Origin: Methanomicrobium sp. W14
Lineage (GTDB): Archaea; Halobacteriota; Methanomicrobia; Methanomicrobiales; Methanomicrobiaceae
Assembly (NCBI RefSeq): GCF_017875315.1
Contig: NZ_JAGGMM010000002.1
Span: forward strand, 372,001 to 436,000
DNA: 64,000 nucleotides
Direction: 5' to 3'
This document shows, piece by piece, positions 49,338-63,974 of the stretch. The notes under the pieces are model-generated. The model saw only the letters and a program-made list of their open reading frames with translations. It was not told the origin of the DNA and ran no database searches. Positions within the stretch are counted from its first letter, which is position 1, and each line of letters starts with the position of its first letter. The translations under genes and the position numbers were made by a program.

Positions 49338-50132
49338 TTAGTAGTTCCGGCATTTTTCGTTGTCACTGAAAAATCCGGCATGGTCTGGAGTGGAATTTAT
49401 CTCGTCTGAAACCGAGTATACAATTTTTCCGTCTTTTTTTTCAGGTATCACAACTCCTGATTCGGAAAGCCTTTTTAAATGCCATAATACGGTAGATACG
49501 GCAATGCCAAGTTTTTTGGAGAGTTCGGATGCCGAAACTCCGTTGGACGACCCGATTGTTCTGCATATCCTCTTTGAAGTTCTGCTTTTGAAAAGCATGA
49601 ATATATCCTGCTCAAAGGGTGTGTATTTCTCGTTGTTCTGAAAATAAAAGACAAATCCGTATTTTTTCCTTTCTGTAATCCTGTTCTGCCCAAGAAGGAT
49701 GTTTACATGGTAACTGAGTGTTCCCCTGTTTATACCTGTATTTCTGGATATATCCGTAAAATTTGATCCGGGATTTTCACAGATGTAATCATATATTCTT
49801 TTTCTTGAAGGGTTTTTCAAAACGTCCTTTTCAGTTATCCGTTTAAACCCGAGTGCCGCAAACATGCACAGTGAGTTTATGATCTCCAGTGCCGGCGTCA
49901 TTGCGGGAAAGAAGGTTACTGCAAAGAACATCAGGTAGTATTTAAGTGAAATTTCCCACCAGCAGACCGGAACTATATCCTGGGGTTCTCCGCCGGACGG
50001 AAGCGAACTGCTATATGATATCGTATAACCTTCTGACGGGTTTCCCGGAAGAATGCAAAACGCTGTCACTAACAGTGCGAGACATAGTGATATTTCTGCA
50101 ATTTTTCCGGTTTTGCGGGTGAACATAATCAT
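49338..50132 (-). CDS. Membrane-anchored regulator with two winged-helix domains
   Basis: 264 residues: TM helix at about 11-29; an external loop of about 35 residues ending VCWWEISLKYY; a second TM helix at about 65-95; then two winged-helix domains (about 108-170, IYDYICENPGSNFTDISRNT; about 180-245, SASELSKKLGIAVSTVLWHLKRL). This would let an extracytoplasmic event act directly on DNA. It is divergent from a secreted beta-propeller gene. The same architecture with a WWE motif recurs at 63240. The ligand and targets are unknown. Confidence 0.75.
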   Translation of the reverse strand: MIMFTRKTGKIAEISLCLALLVTAFCILPGNPSEGYTISYSSSLPSGGEPQDIVPVCWWEISLKYYLMFFAVTFFPAMTPALEIINSLCMFAALGFKRITEKDVLKNPSRKRIYDYICENPGSNFTDISRNTGINRGTLSYHVNILLGQNRITERKKYGFVFYFQNNEKYTPFEQDIFMLFKSRTSKRICRTIGSSNGVSASELSKKLGIAVSTVLWHLKRLSESGVVIPEKKDGKIVYSVSDEINSTPDHAGFFSDNEKCRNY

Positions 50133-50328
50133 TTTTCTTCAGGCTTTCGGGCCGTTGAAATATTAAAGTATATTTATATATAAATCCTGTGTGAGAATCA
50201 TCTAAGCATTAATTTACGGCAGAAGTTTCCGGGCGGTTTTTCCGTTGTAATTTAGAGGATTTTCACATAAACGGTATATTTTCACGTGACTGAATGGTAA
50301 ATCCGGATACATCACGGAAATGATTGAT

Positions 50329-52257
50329 ATGAATGTAAAACCAAATGATGAAAATACCGGGTGCAGAGCAGTGTTCTGCATTTTGGCTGTCCTGGCCCTT
50401 GCGGTATTTCTGCCGGGTGCAGCCTGTGCGGACACAAATGTAAGCATATCGGCAGACCCTGTAGTAATACCTTCGTGCGGTGAGAATATCATTTTCTCGG
50501 GGAATACCGACTCCTTCCAGGACTACAGGCTTTTGATAATCGGGCCTGGTTTTATAAAAAAAGACAGTATCCTGCCTGTAAACGGTATATTTTCGTATAC
50601 TCTGTACTCTTATGAAACTGAAGGGCTTAAGAGCGGTCAGTATTTTGCAGTACTTCAGGAGAGCGGTTACAACGGCAGGTTTGACGCCGGTAAAAACATT
50701 ACGGCCATGTGCCCGGGTACAGTTTCGGAAGAGGCATTCCCCCGTTCTCTTGAGGAATTTCTGGACGAGCTTGAAAGCCCTTTAAGCGATGACATCTATG
50801 CAAAAACGATGTTCATAATTGAGCAGCCATGGATAAAATATGAAACTGTCGCAACAACCACGGACGGAAAAGAAATCTATGTCCTTGCCTCAACGAACCT
50901 GCCTCCGGGTGAAACCGTGGATTACAGCCTTTCCGGTGCAGAGGACAAAAATTTAAATGGCATAGTGAAAGGACAGACTGAGGTCCTGAAAGGGTCTGAA
51001 AGAAACTATTTTGAAGTTAATATTTCAAAGGAAAATCTTTCCTCCGGTGAGTACGTTTTGCAGTCATATATGGAGAGCGGGAATAAATCGGAACTAAACC
51101 AGGCTGTATGTATTGAAGTGGATGAAGACAGTCCTGCAAAAATAAATGTGCCTGAGATAGAGGCAGTGAAAAATCCGGTATCCGCATATTTTTCGCCTGA
51201 AGTAAAAACCGTAAACTCTTCAGAGTCAGATGGAAGCTCATACAAGGATATGACCGTATTTGACGGCATGAGCCTTGGAGCATCACCTTTATGGGCCGGT
51301 CTTGACAAAGACCGCGTTTACTGGACAATTGTAGACGAAAACGGAAGTTCACTTTACGTATACAATCTGACTTCAGGCAAAAGAAGCGAATATGAAGCCT
51401 GCAGTCCTCCGTGCGACTGCGGCAGGATTATCCTGAACGGAAACCGTGCGTTTTATAGTCTTTATGACAACGGTACGAAAGAATACCGTATTGTCTCAGC
51501 TGACCTGAATTCAGGAAAAACTAATCTTGTCTCATCTTCAGGGCACAGATTCTTTGATTATGACTCGTCAGGCGTCCTTGATGCGTGGATAAAACATAAT
51601 GATACAGAAACCCAAAAGGCAGATGTCATGGTTTGCGGTGCCGGACGGGGAGAGGAGAGGTTAATAACTGAAATTAATCTTGGGGAGAGATATCCGGGTG
51701 AAATCGTTACAGACGGCAGGTATGTCGCCTTCAGGGAGTACCCGGAAGAAGGCGAAGAGAACTCATATTTTGTGTACGATACGGTCACGCAGAAGACCTC
51801 TTCCATTGACCTTTACCATGAGAACTCTTCAGTTTATGACCTGAAAAACGGTTTCATTTCCGGCACTTATCCCCTGGAAAACCTGGTAAAAAACCAAAAA
51901 GAGTTGAATGTTACAGGAACACCGTACGGCATATATATTTATGACATAGAAAAGGGGACTGAATCGGATATTGCAGGGTCGGACAGCAGCAAAAAGGGGC
52001 CTGTCATATCTGAAAACAGGGTGTTCTGGACAGAGATGACTGACGGGCATTACGAGGTGTTCTGCTCCGGCATAAACGGGTTGAACCCCCTGAGGCTGAC
52101 ATACGGCTCTTCGGACTGTTATGACGTCTCGGCGGATTCGGGATATATAGTATGGAGCGTGTCCTCCGGAGACATATCGGTCCAAGGTTTATGCCCTGGC
52201 TCTGTTTATGCGGCGGATGTGAACTCACTTATTAGTCGGTATTCTAAGAATGCCTGA
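50329..52257 (+). CDS. Secreted beta-propeller surface protein
   Basis: About 642 residues. Signal peptide (AVFCILAVLALAVFLPGAACA). An N-terminal Ig-like region resembling methanogen surface-protein modules (ADPVVIPSCGENIIFSG) is followed by a second beta domain. Residues from about 310 on form TolB-like blades (repeats of the kind DKDRVYWTIVDENGSSLYVY, NGNRAFYSLYDNGTKEYRI, ENRVFWTEMTDGHYEVFCSG). The ATG at 50329 has GGAAA upstream at spacing 8; the ATG at 50320 is an alternative. Divergent from the membrane winged-helix gene and followed by a related secreted protein. Confidence 0.7.
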   Translation: MNVKPNDENTGCRAVFCILAVLALAVFLPGAACADTNVSISADPVVIPSCGENIIFSGNTDSFQDYRLLIIGPGFIKKDSILPVNGIFSYTLYSYETEGLKSGQYFAVLQESGYNGRFDAGKNITAMCPGTVSEEAFPRSLEEFLDELESPLSDDIYAKTMFIIEQPWIKYETVATTTDGKEIYVLASTNLPPGETVDYSLSGAEDKNLNGIVKGQTEVLKGSERNYFEVNISKENLSSGEYVLQSYMESGNKSELNQAVCIEVDEDSPAKINVPEIEAVKNPVSAYFSPEVKTVNSSESDGSSYKDMTVFDGMSLGASPLWAGLDKDRVYWTIVDENGSSLYVYNLTSGKRSEYEACSPPCDCGRIILNGNRAFYSLYDNGTKEYRIVSADLNSGKTNLVSSSGHRFFDYDSSGVLDAWIKHNDTETQKADVMVCGAGRGEERLITEINLGERYPGEIVTDGRYVAFREYPEEGEENSYFVYDTVTQKTSSIDLYHENSSVYDLKNGFISGTYPLENLVKNQKELNVTGTPYGIYIYDIEKGTESDIAGSDSSKKGPVISENRVFWTEMTDGHYEVFCSGINGLNPLRLTYGSSDCYDVSADSGYIVWSVSSGDISVQGLCPGSVYAADVNSLISRYSKNA

Positions 52258-52311
52258 CACAAATCTTATTTTTGACGGCTGTAATGCAGATTAACGGAAG
52301 TGATGCAGGAT

Positions 52312-53703
52312 ATGGGTGACGGGAATAAAAGAAGGGTTTACTCACTGTACCTGCTGTCAGCCTTAATCCTTTTCATGTTTTTAGTCTCTTCATCGGCCGC
52401 CTATCAGATAAATTCTTTTGCGACGCCCGGAAACGGTTCGGAGATAATTTCACTCTCGTCATCTCTTCAGAGGATAGCGTGGATTGGAAGTGGCGGGGAT
52501 TTTAAAAGCAACGTCTCTGTTTCGGGAAAAGAAACTTTCGTTGCGGTCTTTGACATGATAAACAAATCCGGCGTCATACTGATGCCGGACTCGCAGTTTA
52601 AGAAGTCTCTCTGCATGAACGAAAAATATATGGCGTGGCTTGAGGACGAAAAAACGGGAACTGACATCTGTGTATATAATTTCAGTTCAAAAACCGCTTT
52701 CAGGCTCCATTCTGCTGAACGCAAACAGGGTCTTGTTTTCGGCGGTGACCTGCTTTTCTGGAGCGAAGAGGGGATAAAGAACTCCTCGAAGGTTATGTCT
52801 TTGGACCCGTCATCAAAGAGCGTCAGAACTGTTGTTGAGAATATACAGCCCCCGAAGACCATTGCATCGGACGGAAAAGAGCTGGCTTTTGTAATTCCGG
52901 GTATCCAGGGCGATTCGCTTTACCGCTGTAGTGCTGCCGGTCTTTGCAGTTTACCGGTGTGCGTTGAAAAAAACGGTGATATATCATCCGTTTATTACAG
53001 GGAGAATAATCTTGTCTGGTTTAATAATGCCGGGAAAATTCCTGTTATGCAGAAAAGCCCTGCCGGAACAAATTTTACTGAAAATACCTTTTCGTTCAAA
53101 CGTCAGGTTTTAAGTCCCTTTTTATCAGGAGAGAATATAATATGGGCTGAGAAAAGCAAAGACCTGTGGCAGGTCAGGATTTATGACCCGAAAAAAAACC
53201 TGACTAATGTTTTGTATTCCGGCAACGGAAAAATATCCGTTTGCAGTGACTGCCCGGATAGTTTTGTCTGGACTGAAAAAGGGCCGGATAATGTAAGCAG
53301 GATTTATTATGTCCTGCTAAACGGTAATAGAGGGGACAGCAGCCCCAGGACATTGGTAAATAATTCCGGTAATGAAACGGTTTTTAACGGCATTTCCGGG
53401 AAAAAAATTGTTCAGGGTGAATCGGACTGGTATTCTGTAAACGTCAGGGACGGTGTAAAGAAAATTGCATGTGAGCTTTCATGGATAAATTCATCCAGTT
53501 CTCTTTCCGTGACTCTTATGGGACCCGACTATTCGATACAAAGATATACTAAAGAAAATTTTGGCGGTAACGGTTCTTCAGTCTGTATTTCTATAGAAAA
53601 ATCTCCGCAGATTCCTGCAGGAAAGTGGACGTGCGTAGTTTTGGGTGATTATATCACATCTGAAGAGACATACAGTTTCAGCTGGTATGATTACCTGTCC
53701 TGA
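52312..53703 (+). CDS. Secreted beta-propeller protein with C-terminal PPC-like domain
   Basis: About 463 residues. Signal peptide (YLLSALILFMFLVSSSAAY), TolB-like blades from 45 to 350, and a C-terminal pre-peptidase C-terminal-like beta-sandwich (GESDWYSVNVRDGVKK...ISIEKSPQIPAGKWTCVVLGD). The ATG at 52312 has GGAAGTGA upstream; a GTG at 52300 is less likely. Probably co-transcribed with the preceding surface protein (55 bp apart). The PPC-like end links it to the small PPC protein at 62735. Confidence 0.7.
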   Translation: MGDGNKRRVYSLYLLSALILFMFLVSSSAAYQINSFATPGNGSEIISLSSSLQRIAWIGSGGDFKSNVSVSGKETFVAVFDMINKSGVILMPDSQFKKSLCMNEKYMAWLEDEKTGTDICVYNFSSKTAFRLHSAERKQGLVFGGDLLFWSEEGIKNSSKVMSLDPSSKSVRTVVENIQPPKTIASDGKELAFVIPGIQGDSLYRCSAAGLCSLPVCVEKNGDISSVYYRENNLVWFNNAGKIPVMQKSPAGTNFTENTFSFKRQVLSPFLSGENIIWAEKSKDLWQVRIYDPKKNLTNVLYSGNGKISVCSDCPDSFVWTEKGPDNVSRIYYVLLNGNRGDSSPRTLVNNSGNETVFNGISGKKIVQGESDWYSVNVRDGVKKIACELSWINSSSSLSVTLMGPDYSIQRYTKENFGGNGSSVCISIEKSPQIPAGKWTCVVLGDYITSEETYSFSWYDYLS

Positions 53704-59876: not shown

Positions 59877-60740
59877 TCAGTTTCCGGGTTGGGCCCGGTT
59901 TGCCTTTGTGTACTTCATACCGTCCTTTGAAACCTGAATTGTTATTGGATCTTTTGGGTCAAATGTTTTGTTTCCTACAATCCCCGGGACAGTTCCGACG
60001 GGAAGTGTTTTAGTGGTCTCTATGTATGCGAATTTATTCTCTGAGCCTGTTCCTATTCCGGCTGCGACGTGGCTTTGGTTCTCGTAGTACATCATTTCAG
60101 TGTCGTAGCCTTCGATTGTAAGAATCGCTGCAAGGAGCATGCTTTTGTCGTCGCAGTCACCTGACGCGTCGGATATTGTTTCAACAGGGTACTTTGGGGC
60201 CGAACCCGTGGAGCTGTAAGGCAGGGACTGTACAAATTTCACGATGAATTCAGCATATTCATCGCTGTCCATCTCCTTTTCGTCACGCACTTTTCCAAGC
60301 TCTGATACTACGCTTTCGTAGGTTTCGGTGTTTACGGGGTCTGCAATTAATGAGAGGTAATATCCTGCCACCCACTCTTTCCTCTTAGTCAATGAGGATT
60401 TTGCCCAGATGTTTTTATTGGTTTTCCGGGCTGCCAAAAGCATTTTTTTGTCTGTCTCCAGATTCAGGGTGATATTTTCAAAATTATAACTGAATGTATA
60501 ATTTTTTGAGATGATATCCACTCCTTTTGAGTATGACATATCAGTCGCAGGGTACCTGACTCCTGCATTTTCGGACTGCTGCTCTATTGTCTCTGTCAGG
60601 AATCTGTCACTATATACTGAGTTGTCCTGTATTGCTGCAGCAACTGCTGTCCCTGAGAAGAAAAGCAGGATTATTGTAAATATTGTAAAAACTGCAATTT
60701 TTGGCTTTGCAGAATTTGCAAATCCGGAGATTCTGATCAC
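59877..60740 (-). CDS. Secreted transglutaminase-like protein
   Basis: 287 residues with an N-terminal signal anchor (IAVFTIFTIILLFFSGTAVA) and a transglutaminase-like (cysteine-protease) core. The catalytic Cys is in DASGDCDDKSMLLAAIL (about 187) and the His in YENQSHVAAGIG (about 215), with a following Asp/Glu candidate in FAYIETT. The family is frequent among methanogen surface proteins. Substrate unknown. The 447 bp upstream of it toward moeA hold the RNA candidate and no other gene. Confidence 0.8.
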   Translation of the reverse strand: MIRISGFANSAKPKIAVFTIFTIILLFFSGTAVAAAIQDNSVYSDRFLTETIEQQSENAGVRYPATDMSYSKGVDIISKNYTFSYNFENITLNLETDKKMLLAARKTNKNIWAKSSLTKRKEWVAGYYLSLIADPVNTETYESVVSELGKVRDEKEMDSDEYAEFIVKFVQSLPYSSTGSAPKYPVETISDASGDCDDKSMLLAAILTIEGYDTEMMYYENQSHVAAGIGTGSENKFAYIETTKTLPVGTVPGIVGNKTFDPKDPITIQVSKDGMKYTKANRAQPGN

Positions 60741-61169
60741 TGTATCGTCCCGTGGATAAGTATTTGGGATTCTCTACAGTGTCTGTATGAAATGCAAATT
60801 TTTAACCTTTATCATTTGTGATTATCACTAATGATTTAATATAACAATAATTGTATACGATATATTGTGCAATTTATCCAATAAATCTCGAAAATAGGGC
60901 AGTTTTCCCAGTTTATGCGTGACATTCTGTTTTTTTATATAATTTAAAAATGATTTTCTGACATTTTTTTTACAAAGGAGTCTGTGAAAAATAATACCTT
61001 TTACCTGGCTGATTTTCTTATTACTGTTATTAAATCCTGAAAAAAGCAGGGACTTGAACGGATAGCGCTGTAGGAGTGAATGCAAGGTTTAAGTGAAAAC
61101 TTCAAAATTTTTTTTAGAAATTCCTGCCTGATTAATAAGAAAACAAAAAAGTGTAAAGAAGGCTTTTTT
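60741..61169. other. Intergenic region, no gene seen
   Basis: About 430 bp of AT-rich sequence. Minus-strand open frames here have no SD or family features. A TATA-like run near 60951 (TTTTTTTATATAA) is unassigned. Confidence 0.35.
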
Positions 61170-61607
61170 TCAGGATATGCCTGATATGAAGATAATAACC
61201 CATATTACAGACAGGACTGCCGCTATGGCAAGTAGCTTTTTTTCTTTTCCCGAGGACAGAAATCCTATTAATCCGGTTAATATCAGAAGAGTCAGGTGAT
61301 ATCCGGTGAACAGCAGAATGTGACCCGAACTGATTAAGTTCTGAAAATTATTCCCGAAGAATGCAAAAATGATTAAAAATGCATAGGATATGATTCCGGC
61401 AAGTGGTGCACGAAACCTGTCACCTGTCTTGTAGCCGTAACAAAAAGCCCCGGCCGGGTAAAGGATGATTAGTAATGTTCCTATTATTCCTGAGTAAAAG
61501 AGTTCATTCCGGCTTAAAAGATAATATAAAGAGTCTAAAACGGCAAAGCAGGCTATGTAAAAAAGGAAGATTAGATTTTTTTGGTTGATTAATTCATCAG
61601 TTTTCAT
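61170..61607 (-). CDS. Small integral membrane protein
   Basis: 145 residues with four or five hydrophobic helices (about 13-32, 38-58, 66-90, 95-115, 123-143) and short loops. No family recognised. It begins 2 bp after the stop of the secreted protein gene upstream, so they are translationally coupled and may act together as anchor and secreted part. Confidence 0.55.
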   Translation of the reverse strand: MKTDELINQKNLIFLFYIACFAVLDSLYYLLSRNELFYSGIIGTLLIILYPAGAFCYGYKTGDRFRAPLAGIISYAFLIIFAFFGNNFQNLISSGHILLFTGYHLTLLILTGLIGFLSSGKEKKLLAIAAVLSVIWVIIFISGIS

Positions 61608-61609
61608 GT

Positions 61610-62452
61610 TCAGCCGCTATAGAAAATTCTTGTGCACATGCCATTATTGTAAGGACTTGCTACATAATTGTTGAGGGAATAGTCATCTTCATAAACATGC
61701 CACAAATTGTCGCCTGGTTGATCATAGAATCCTGCTACTTCTTCTTCTGCATTTTCAAAACCATCGGCCGAATGAGGAATAGCGGTATCATGGTGGGCCG
61801 CTCCTATGACATCTCCATCATTCATCTGCCATAATCTGACGTGCCACCCACCGAGAATTCTGAGAGGGTCACTTGCAAGACCATCATCTGCTTTCCATCC
61901 GTTATCATATATGTAGTAAGTATCCTCAGCTATATCGTCCCACCATCCTTCGTTCAATATTTCTGTTTTTACTGTGCTGATGCTGTTACTTTCCCATGCA
62001 ATATTTACAGGTTCGTCCAACTGATGATACGTATTATCTATTTTTTCGTAAATCCACTGGGGGTAATCATAACTTTTTACAGAAAGAGGAGGGTCGTATT
62101 CCAGCGTAAAAACCTCATATGATAACTCTTTTGAACTGTAACTTATACCTTCTGCAAGATTTAACTCTTTTGCGTAATTTGAATCAACTTTATATGAGGT
62201 TGTTTTATCTAAATGATCTGTACCAAACCTTGATTTCAACTCGTTTCCAGAGTAGGTATCTGTGACATAGACTATACCATTGGAGATATAGTAATCAGTT
62301 GTATGTTCAACAAGGATGGTGTGCTCTTTTTCCCATGTGTTTATTATTCTCGGACTGTTTTTTTCAGCGCATACAGTCTGCATAATAAATGCATTTACTA
62401 AAATCGCTATAGCAAATAAGCTCAGCATCTGCCGCAATTTCTTTGTTTTCAT
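61610..62452 (-). CDS. Secreted protein of unknown function with His/Asp-rich C-terminus
   Basis: 280 residues after choosing the ATG at 62452, which has a GGGAGGA SD; a longer frame to 62554 is less likely. Signal peptide (MLSLFAIAILVNAFIMQTVCA). The C-terminal half carries GGWHVRLWQM, GAAHHDTAIPHSADGFENAEEE and NLWHVYEDD; the concentration of His, Asp and Glu could bind metal. No family recognised. It is divergent from the PPC gene and in operon with the small membrane protein. Confidence 0.6.
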   Translation of the reverse strand: MKTKKLRQMLSLFAIAILVNAFIMQTVCAEKNSPRIINTWEKEHTILVEHTTDYYISNGIVYVTDTYSGNELKSRFGTDHLDKTTSYKVDSNYAKELNLAEGISYSSKELSYEVFTLEYDPPLSVKSYDYPQWIYEKIDNTYHQLDEPVNIAWESNSISTVKTEILNEGWWDDIAEDTYYIYDNGWKADDGLASDPLRILGGWHVRLWQMNDGDVIGAAHHDTAIPHSADGFENAEEEVAGFYDQPGDNLWHVYEDDYSLNNYVASPYNNGMCTRIFYSG

Positions 62453-62559: not shown

Positions 62560-62702
62560 GGATTTTACCTTTTGATGCTCTATTTAAGGTAAATTCCCCT
62601 GCAACATCGTCTGGATGTCACGTGCTTATCTTTAAATTTACTTTTAAATACCTCTTATGACCAAATCATCTAATCTTATAGAGATATTTTGATGATTTGG
62701 TC
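62560..62702. promoter_or_regulatory. Divergent control region with two inverted repeats
   Basis: A perfect 13-bp inverted repeat (TGACCAAATCATC at 62658-62670 and GATGATTTGGTCA at 62691-62703) with a 20-bp centre lies directly upstream of the TATA box AATATATTATAAATT (62711-62725) of the PPC gene. A second, 12-bp arms with one mismatch (62560-62571 and 62586-62597), lies nearer the minus-strand gene, whose TATA-like CTATATCTTA is near 62485-62495. They are strong operator candidates for the linked winged-helix regulator. Confidence 0.6.
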
Positions 62703-62734
62703 ACAACAGCAATATATTATAAATTTATTAAATT

Positions 62735-63202
62735 ATGCTCATGACTCAAAAAACCTTAATCATTGCTATGGTGGTCGTATCTGCTGCACTTTTCATTTTT
62801 CCTGCAATGGGTAGTGGAATATCTGAAAAAAGTATAAATGATGAAATCATTGTTATGCCATCTGTTGACAAATATATAACAAATTTTTCAGAAATAAAAT
62901 ATCAGCATCAAATATCTCAGGGAGAAATGGTTTATCATACTAGGTATGTAAGTCCTTTTACTTCGAAAATTGATGTTACATTGACTTGGGATGAAAATTA
63001 TGGTGATCTTGAGTTATATGTTTATACTCCAGATAATAGCTTTGTAGGACATTATACTGATTTGTATGATAGTCCTGAAAGAGACGGAATGATTGATATT
63101 GATGTACAGTCCTCATCGGGCTTCCTTCCTATGGGTGACTGGAAGCTTAACGTTTATGGTGGACAGGTTTCAGGTTCATCTTTAAGTTATTCACTTTTGT
63201 GA
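62735..63202 (+). CDS. Small secreted protein with PPC-like domain
   Basis: 155 residues. Signal peptide (LIIAMVVVSAALFIFPAMG). The mature part begins INDEIIVMPSVDKY, then a PPC-type beta-sandwich: KIDVTLTWDENYGDLELYVY, NSFVGHYTD, PMGDWKLNVYGG. The IIVxPSxD motif also occurs in the external loop of the regulator encoded 37 bp downstream. The ATG at 62741 is an alternative start. Secreted sensor or surface subunit is inferred. Confidence 0.65.
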   Translation: MLMTQKTLIIAMVVVSAALFIFPAMGSGISEKSINDEIIVMPSVDKYITNFSEIKYQHQISQGEMVYHTRYVSPFTSKIDVTLTWDENYGDLELYVYTPDNSFVGHYTDLYDSPERDGMIDIDVQSSSGFLPMGDWKLNVYGGQVSGSSLSYSLL

Positions 63203-63239
63203 TAGAAAGATATAAATTTCTTTTTTCGTATAATAAAAT

Positions 63240-63974
63240 ATGAATCTTAGGGGGCCAGTTATAGCATTAGTACTGATATTAATTCTTGTCTATATCCATC
63301 AGGCTTCAGTTGATTCTAATATTATTGTAACGCCGAGTGCTGATTCGCCTGATTTTTTTAGGGAAGATAATGTTCGTGCTCTTAACTGGTGGGAAGTCAC
63401 CCCTATTCAGCATTTTATTTCAATAATTGGGTTATACTCTTTATATTTAATACCTATAGCAAGTGTTATCACAATAATTACAGGTTTCTTTTTTGGTATT
63501 AAGCAGATTAAAAAAAATAATGTCCTTGAAAATGAACGAAGAGAGGATATAGTTAGAATAATTAAAAGCAACCCAGGAATTACTTTAGGAGAAATTGAGA
63601 ATATAACAAGAATTAACCATAGTTCCCTGAGATATCATCTCAAAATTTTGTTTCGTGAAGGAAAAATTTTTTCGACAAAACAGTACAAAAGGAGACATTA
63701 CTTTGGAAGATTTAATGATTATAATCATTATTCCAGTGATAAAAGAATTATATCTGATTGCCCAAAAACTGAGGATATTCTGAGGTATATATCTATGAAT
63801 CCGGGTTGTACTCAGAGAGACCTTATGGAATATACAAAATTATCTTCTCCTACAATATCATGGCATATTGGAAGGCTTAGTTCAAATAATCTTATAGATA
63901 TAGAAAAGGAAAAAAATTCTAATCATTATTATGTTACTAAAAAAGAAGGATTTTTTCTTTCTATCAAATTGTAA
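63240..63974 (+). CDS. Membrane-anchored regulator with two winged-helix domains (second copy)
   Basis: 244 residues: TM helix at about 6-20, an external loop of about 33 residues (SNIIVTPSADSPDFF to LNWWEVTP), a TM region at about 55-85, then winged-helix domains at about 97-160 (NPGITLGEIENITRINHSSLRYHLKIL) and 175-235 (NPGCTQRDLMEYTKLSSPTISWHI). Same layout and WWE motif as the protein at 49338. Probably one transcript with the PPC gene; the upstream 13-bp inverted repeat is a likely target. The gene ends within the window. Confidence 0.75.
   Translation: MNLRGPVIALVLILILVYIHQASVDSNIIVTPSADSPDFFREDNVRALNWWEVTPIQHFISIIGLYSLYLIPIASVITIITGFFFGIKQIKKNNVLENERREDIVRIIKSNPGITLGEIENITRINHSSLRYHLKILFREGKIFSTKQYKRRHYFGRFNDYNHYSSDKRIISDCPKTEDILRYISMNPGCTQRDLMEYTKLSSPTISWHIGRLSSNNLIDIEKEKNSNHYYVTKKEGFFLSIKL

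Follow-up and report, generated by a model that had tools for sequence, protein, structure and literature searches.

What might a DNA-binding protein anchored in the membrane respond to, and which genes would it control, when the gene directly before it encodes a secreted protein? The question is raised by a locus of Methanomicrobium sp. W14 (contig NZ_JAGGMM010000002.1), analysed here within a window, which means the whole stretch of 64,000 nucleotides. Near the end of the window, a secreted jelly-roll protein of 155 amino acids resembling the PPC domain (62735..63202, plus strand, with an alternative ATG at 62741; open reading frame (ORF) list, profiles and AlphaFold) is followed by a membrane-tethered regulator of 244 amino acids (63240..63974, plus strand; ORF list, Pfam, hydrophobicity and charge). 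The regulator begins 37 bp beyond the stop codon of the secreted ORF. This arrangement, with two winged helices in the regulator, had been proposed in an original prediction made from the DNA letters, and both ORF positions and Pfam agree with it. Linkage, a motif common to both proteins and an operator all exceed their controls, and the pairing is not a product of chance. At the level of sequence, the pairing, the shared motif, the operator, the promoter boxes abutting it and the types of nearby effectors are all present. With moderate confidence, we read the locus as a one-component, probably activating, membrane-tethered regulator which is coupled to a secreted partner and controls secreted effectors. 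The original prediction had missed how general the motif is, as well as the operator with its flanking transcription factor B recognition element (BRE) and TATA boxes and the set of secreted effectors.

The gene-neighbourhood survey that the prediction had suggested, with missing linkage as the sign against it, found the linkage to be recurrent. Among the fetched loci, the regulator lies directly downstream of the PPC-like gene in 116 of 120 distinct proteins, and in the best 30 loci it does so on the same strand in 30/30. A search of ten genomes by both profiles gave 59 full-length regulators, 48 of them in tandem with a PPC gene, whereas regulators without the N-terminal external part were never paired (0/10). 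A scan of organism-named contigs, which overlaps the first locus set in part as some species are common to both, gave 69 paired loci out of 70 testable ones. Since the PPC profiles used for sampling the families were themselves derived from paired members, these counts include too few of the weaker PPC proteins that stand unpaired. The hidden Markov model of the secreted family matches 115 of the 393 genomes of the phylum, and the hosts named in the contig scan are Methanosarcina, Methanolobus, Methanococcoides, Methanohalophilus, Methanoperedens, Methanocella, Methanogenium, Methanoregula, Methanoculleus and Methanocalculus. The window pair is a member of a module of Methanomicrobia-type archaea, found in many that take part in methane cycling.

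The host genome itself contains nine regulator matches and six PPC-like matches, and five of the PPC-like genes are directly upstream of a regulator. In a further host pair (L003), the secreted protein is longer and is PPC-like at its C-terminus. In a paralogous pair (L002, G000:C1:275073-275530), stop codons break up the PPC gene and the regulator is intact. The archaeal module was also seen on three short contigs (L169, L196 and L214) labelled as WOR-3, Cloacimonadota and Bacteroidaceae metagenome-assembled genomes; these contigs are probably misbinned. A viral origin of the module is not supported, since no relatives were found among the viral contigs scanned.

The regulator is built from a hydrophobic segment, an external tail, a transmembrane (TM) segment and two winged helix-turn-helix (wHTH) domains, both seen with Pfam and AlphaFold. 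The first (residues 98-157; 63531..63710, plus strand) belongs to HTH_HVO_0163_N (PF24266), which it matches with 54.6 bits against a cut-off of 31. The second (residues ~178-235; 63771..63944, plus strand) is HTH_24-like, with 50.4 bits against a cut-off of 21.9 over residues 178-219. The solved structures nearest to the wHTH are ArsR-type folds, and none homologous to the whole regulator was found. With anchor and DNA-binding domain in one polypeptide, the protein has the layout of a membrane-bound one-component regulator. As for its topology, negative charge prevails in the loop and positive charge on the wHTH side, and the positive-inside rule is obeyed by 92 of 95 homologues; the loop is therefore predicted to lie outside. 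The prediction had expected an external loop between two TM segments and had named a cytoplasmic loop as counter-evidence. The external position stands as a prediction, and the first segment calls for a correction in most homologues. In 75 of 92 regulators, this segment precedes an AxA-like cleavage site and resembles a signal peptide that is removed. After such cleavage, the mature regulator may keep one TM segment and expose a free N-terminal tail on the outside. The window regulator is an exception: compared with its homologues (92 regulators), no good AxA-like site was found in it, and its first hydrophobic segment may therefore be a true anchor.

The PPC-like label of the secreted partner could be maintained, through its relatives and its fold. 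The window protein itself stays below the Pfam gathering score for PPC (PF04151; 14.5 bits vs 25.9, E 0.07), and 27 of its 91 relatives match the family (E below 0.01; best 1.5e-8). AlphaFold, run with 91 sequences, returned a jelly-roll sandwich with a predicted local distance difference test score (pLDDT) >90. The model resembles the C-terminal jelly rolls of subtilases, and Tk-SP, SubHal and KP-43 are among its top PDB matches.

The two proteins share the motif IIVxPSxD, as the prediction had noticed. In the secreted protein it reads IIVMPSVD (residues 38-45, at the mature start; 62846..62869, plus strand); the regulator has IIVTPSAD in the loop that joins its two hydrophobic segments (residues 28-35; 63321..63344, plus strand). 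Both proteins start with a signal segment, a short spacer and the motif. IIVxPSxD is the local form of a wider motif, [YFI]x[VI]x[PST], present in both partners. Among 84 pairs with clean segments, 63 carry the wider motif in the secreted mature start and in the regulator tail (shuffles: mean 1.7, maximum 5), and 41 carry a stricter form in both partners (shuffle maximum 1). This stricter form was met in 11 of 200 other signal-peptide-like ORFs; ten of these were re-fetched PPC proteins, leaving 1 in ~190. Within genomes, cognate tails and strands have a similarity of 29.9 vs 26.2 after permutation, and 0 of 5000 permutations were as high (29 pairs, 11 genomes). In the AlphaFold model of the window secreted protein, residues 38-42 form a separate beta-strand outside the sandwich (pLDDT ~70). 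A chain in which PPC protein and regulator are joined by in-frame read-through (L009) was also modelled; the partner's strand is formed (pLDDT ~83) and the regulator's motif is disordered (pLDDT <50). Since the strand forms from the partner's own motif while the regulator's copy stays disordered, the strand belongs to the partner. We hypothesize that the regulator's copy competes for the place of this strand.

A common control region for the pair and its divergent neighbour was recognised upstream of the PPC gene. An inverted repeat, TGACCAAATCATC ... GATGATTTGGTCA, spans 62658-62703, with arms at 62645-62673 and 62688-62716 that agree at 79%. Inverted-repeat search and a position weight matrix (PWM) place half-site 1, TGACCAAATCATCTAATC, at 62658..62675 and, after a 10-bp spacer, the inverted half-site 2, read on the minus strand as TGACCAAATCATCAAAAT, at 62686..62703. 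According to the operator alignment, a BRE/TATA-like element of the divergent promoter, outward TAAGAGGTATTTAAAA (62642..62657, minus strand), abuts half-site 1, and that of the PPC-regulator operon, CAACAGCAATATATTATAAAT (62704..62724, plus strand), follows half-site 2. Therefore, the PPC-regulator operon and the divergent secreted gene would share this control region (62658-62703). Its left arm is directed at the effector gene, which starts at 62452 after a long leader, and its right arm at the PPC gene. The original prediction of a one-component regulator acting on DNA had pointed to 62640-62720 as its binding region. The layout and a strong predicted operator inside that region agree with it; the wHTH part may bind there, and the regulator may sense the surface.

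The same design is conserved as inverted half-sites TGTCCAAATCATCCAACT, each against a BRE/TATA promoter. An imperfect palindrome scoring >=12 is present in 31% of 115 upstream regions vs 0/195 shuffles. The half-site reads TG[AT]CCA[AT]ATC[AG]TCcAACT in the PWM, and paired inverted half-sites with a PWM score of at least 20 occur in 28% of the 115 regions. As the PWM was trained on these same regions, the organism-named scan is the better test; it gave paired half-sites in 23 of 72 loci, ~15 of them outside the training set by our reading. When 58 operators were aligned on their outer edges, outward position 2 was A/T in 99%, nearly always A, and positions 8-12 were 84-100% A/T on both sides, irrespective of the spacer, which is mostly 10 and also 3, 11, 12, 21, 27 or 32-36. 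Judging from base composition, this flanking pattern corresponds to two divergent BRE/TATA boxes, each joined to a half-site, with the composite consensus arm AGTTgGATGATtTGGaCA-gAAAAtaTATATA. Single half-sites in the gene clusters also abut TATA boxes and are directed at genes for secreted or membrane proteins. In the host genome, the strict palindrome of the window occurs once and the half-site-plus-TATA pattern was not found at all; the regulon of the window regulator therefore appears to be local. A single operator for all pairs was considered and rejected, as about one third have it. At a Methanosarcina locus (L180, 3764-3953), the half-sites are ~170 bp apart, each against its own TATA box, and close dimer spacing is therefore not required.

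The divergent secreted/membrane gene pair at 61170-62452, which the prediction had included in its proposal, is present. It consists of a candidate secreted effector of 280 amino acids from ATG 62452 with a signal peptide (61610..62452, minus strand; ORF list, profiles) and a small polytopic membrane protein of 145 amino acids with ~4-5 TM segments, a candidate immunity or partner protein (61170..61607, minus strand; ORF list, conservation). The effector candidate has no Pfam or NCBIfam match. Both genes recur together in two other genomes (L063, L071/L163), beside PPC-regulator pairs of a different subfamily, which suggests cassette exchange. A crude ORF caller found a divergent signal-peptide ORF upstream of 48 of the 97 pairs with enough sequence, and such genes are often accompanied by a small membrane partner. 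Among 75 divergent proteins, five match C39-like peptidases, five M12 peptidases and one a transglutaminase. One further protein (L137) matches a serine-protease model weakly, and likenesses of other effectors seen by eye (trypsin-fold protease, Zn-phospholipase-like, Cys-rich or hydrophobic peptide) were not confirmed by Pfam. The effector of L169 carries a C-terminal halocin C8 domain (27.5 bits vs a cut-off of 24). Five of the 14 non-haloarchaeal halocin-C8 loci lie within ~5 kb of a PPC-regulator pair, where we estimate ~0.05 by chance; in the window's genome, the domain had no match. Two genomes (G016 and G021) contain several operator copies, each ahead of a different secreted gene.

Tandem arrays of operator copies with decayed PPC gene copies were also observed, a different secreted gene standing after each operator (L154, 3704-9299; L153, 2504-12415); from their sequence, they are recent local duplications of the control region. 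At L276 (2965-5410), several Cys-rich and halocin-C8-like genes stand beside a PPC-regulator pair without the canonical operator.

In the mechanism that we propose, the regulator would bind the 18-bp half-sites against the BRE/TATA boxes of its own PPC-regulator operon and of the divergent effector gene. The latter would be accompanied by a small membrane partner gene; in some genomes, further effector cassettes have extra half-sites of their own. The external tail repeats the motif seen in the N-terminal strand of the secreted protein encoded in the same operon, and most likely the partner, or the loss or occupation of its N-terminal strand, would set the state of the tail. The regulator would then recruit TFB/TBP to both promoters, which would lead to positive autoregulation and bring secreted effectors into action, among them peptidases and halocin-C8-like peptides. 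We infer from the sequences that the regulator binds this operator and that partner and tail interact; sensing of the surface by the regulator and action of the effectors against competitors are presumed. Activation rather than repression is suggested by analogy, because the BRE-abutting position resembles that of TFB-RF1 (PMC5937170) and EarA (PMC5512572), archaeal activators which sit at or next to the BRE; we regard it as about twice as probable. A more specific version, a dedicated route of extracellular signalling in archaea, is rather doubtful: by strand mimicry, the tail would copy the partner's N-terminal strand, and strand exchange on the jelly roll, caused for example by cutting of the strand or by accumulation of the partner with cell density, would switch the membrane-tethered activator and so turn on paired divergent promoters of archaeocins and secreted hydrolases with their immunity proteins. 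Overall, the module has the appearance of a hitherto undescribed switch that governs chemical warfare by archaea.

Several observations weigh against this interpretation. An operator abutting the BRE could also serve repression, and the half-sites meet or overlap the BRE directly, at a constant register. Many wHTH autoregulators repress, and the nearest solved structures are the ArsR-type folds. The regulator might accordingly be a membrane-tethered repressor whose half-sites, when bound, occlude the BRE on both sides until release by a signal that arrives through the tail or through the PPC protein; we hold this to be less likely, as the half-sites lie upstream of the TATA box, not over it or the start site, and single half-sites suffice at some promoters, which fits recruitment. 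Moreover, about two thirds of the pairs lack this operator sequence, only some of them having another inverted repeat, and the operator is putatively assigned to the regulator by its position.

The contact between tail and partner is also open to challenge. The prediction had proposed modelling the complex as well as the pair; the secreted jelly roll came out with high confidence, and docking of the tail was not predicted in the read-through chain (L009), a single-chain and therefore indirect test. This result, together with the common order of signal segment, spacer and motif, would fit a motif that does not serve partner contact. It may be read by a processing protease or by a third component of the surface, or a duplication of the 5' end of the partner gene may have given the regulator its signal segment and tail. 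Such an origin or use is possible and seems to us the weaker account, since tail-less regulators are unpaired (0/10) and cognate similarity exceeds non-cognate similarity within genomes. Furthermore, most effectors carry no recognised domain, and their role in killing or immunity is putative. Peptidases and propellers would also fit nutrient scavenging or envelope maintenance, and the divergent proteins could be housekeeping exoenzymes or surface proteins rather than weapons. This is conceivable at a similar, somewhat low level; the halocin-C8 domains, the small membrane partner adjoining the window effector, the tandem diversified cassettes and the presence of one effector cassette beside different regulator subfamilies argue for the antagonistic role instead.

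Membrane-tethered winged-helix activators are familiar from bacteria. ToxR/ToxS, CadC and TcpP/TcpH have an N-terminal wHTH, a single TM segment and a folded periplasmic domain. As far as the accounts considered here describe them, ToxR and TcpP resemble the module in having a partner that acts outside the cytoplasm, but these partner proteins (ToxS, TcpH) are unrelated to the PPC-like protein. Unlike the window module, TFB-RF1 and EarA are not known to be membrane-tethered or to have a secreted partner. Among archaea, ArnR/ArnR1 of Sulfolobus acidocaldarius, a membrane-bound one-component regulator with a helix-turn-helix (HTH) and two TM segments, controls surface-structure genes (PMC6396743). 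It shares this general type with the module; however, its HTH is N-terminal, followed by HAMP-like and sensor domains and C-terminal TM segments (PMC6396743), whereas in the window module the tail and TM segments are N-terminal, two wHTH domains are present, and the regulator has a secreted partner gene of its own, whose product shares its external motif. By its Pfam domains, the window regulator thus falls outside the ArnR family: the order is reversed, there are two wHTH domains and no sensor domain lies between. Its N-terminal winged helix belongs to the HTH_HVO_0163_N family, for which the HTH is the sole defining feature, and the literature search found no partner, operator or function for this family. 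Halocin C8 and archaeocin loci are similar in having a transcription regulator near archaeocin genes, and some effectors here contain the halocin C8 domain. For Halobacteria, the neighbourhood of archaeocins is reported to include the regulator arCOG02808 (PMC8416519, citing Makarova et al. 2019); in the part of this account considered, neither a PPC partner nor a tail motif or an operator is mentioned. Consistent with the remark in the original prediction that the pairing was not known to be described, the literature search returned no description of the pair, motif or operator; the archaeal toxin survey of Makarova et al. 2019 (mBio), outside the reach of this search, may mention them.

Little is known about how archaea sense the outside and control antagonism. 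A widespread regulator family (Methanosarcina, Methanolobus, Methanoperedens, Methanoculleus and relatives) gains a predicted partner, a predicted DNA target and predicted output genes. In practice, the operator and the PPC-regulator pair can also serve as queries for finding new archaeocins and other secreted effectors of archaea.

The link to beta-propeller genes, likewise part of the original prediction, has been recovered in a second system. Six of the 11 full-length regulators not in tandem are divergent and lie 2.7-6 kb from a PPC-like domain which ends an open frame of 459-473 residues; of these six, beta-propeller identity was read for the window example alone. There, a second regulator of the same family (49338..50132, minus strand; profile search) is divergent from a gene for a secreted beta-propeller protein (50320..52257, plus strand), followed by a secreted beta-propeller protein with a C-terminal PPC-like domain (52300..53703, plus strand; both from profile and sequence analysis). 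The layout is that of the main pair, with variant half-sites between the divergent genes: a half-site-like TGTGAGAATCATCTAAGC, read by eye, beside the regulator promoter (50190..50207) and an inverted half-site-like TGTGAAAATCCTCTAAAT from the half-site search (50250..50267), then TAAACGGTATAT before the propeller gene. Elsewhere in the window, the gene at 59877-60740 encodes a secreted protein whose core resembles a transglutaminase (Pfam match below threshold), and a weak half-site-like element (12.9 bits) lies upstream of this gene at 60866-60883.
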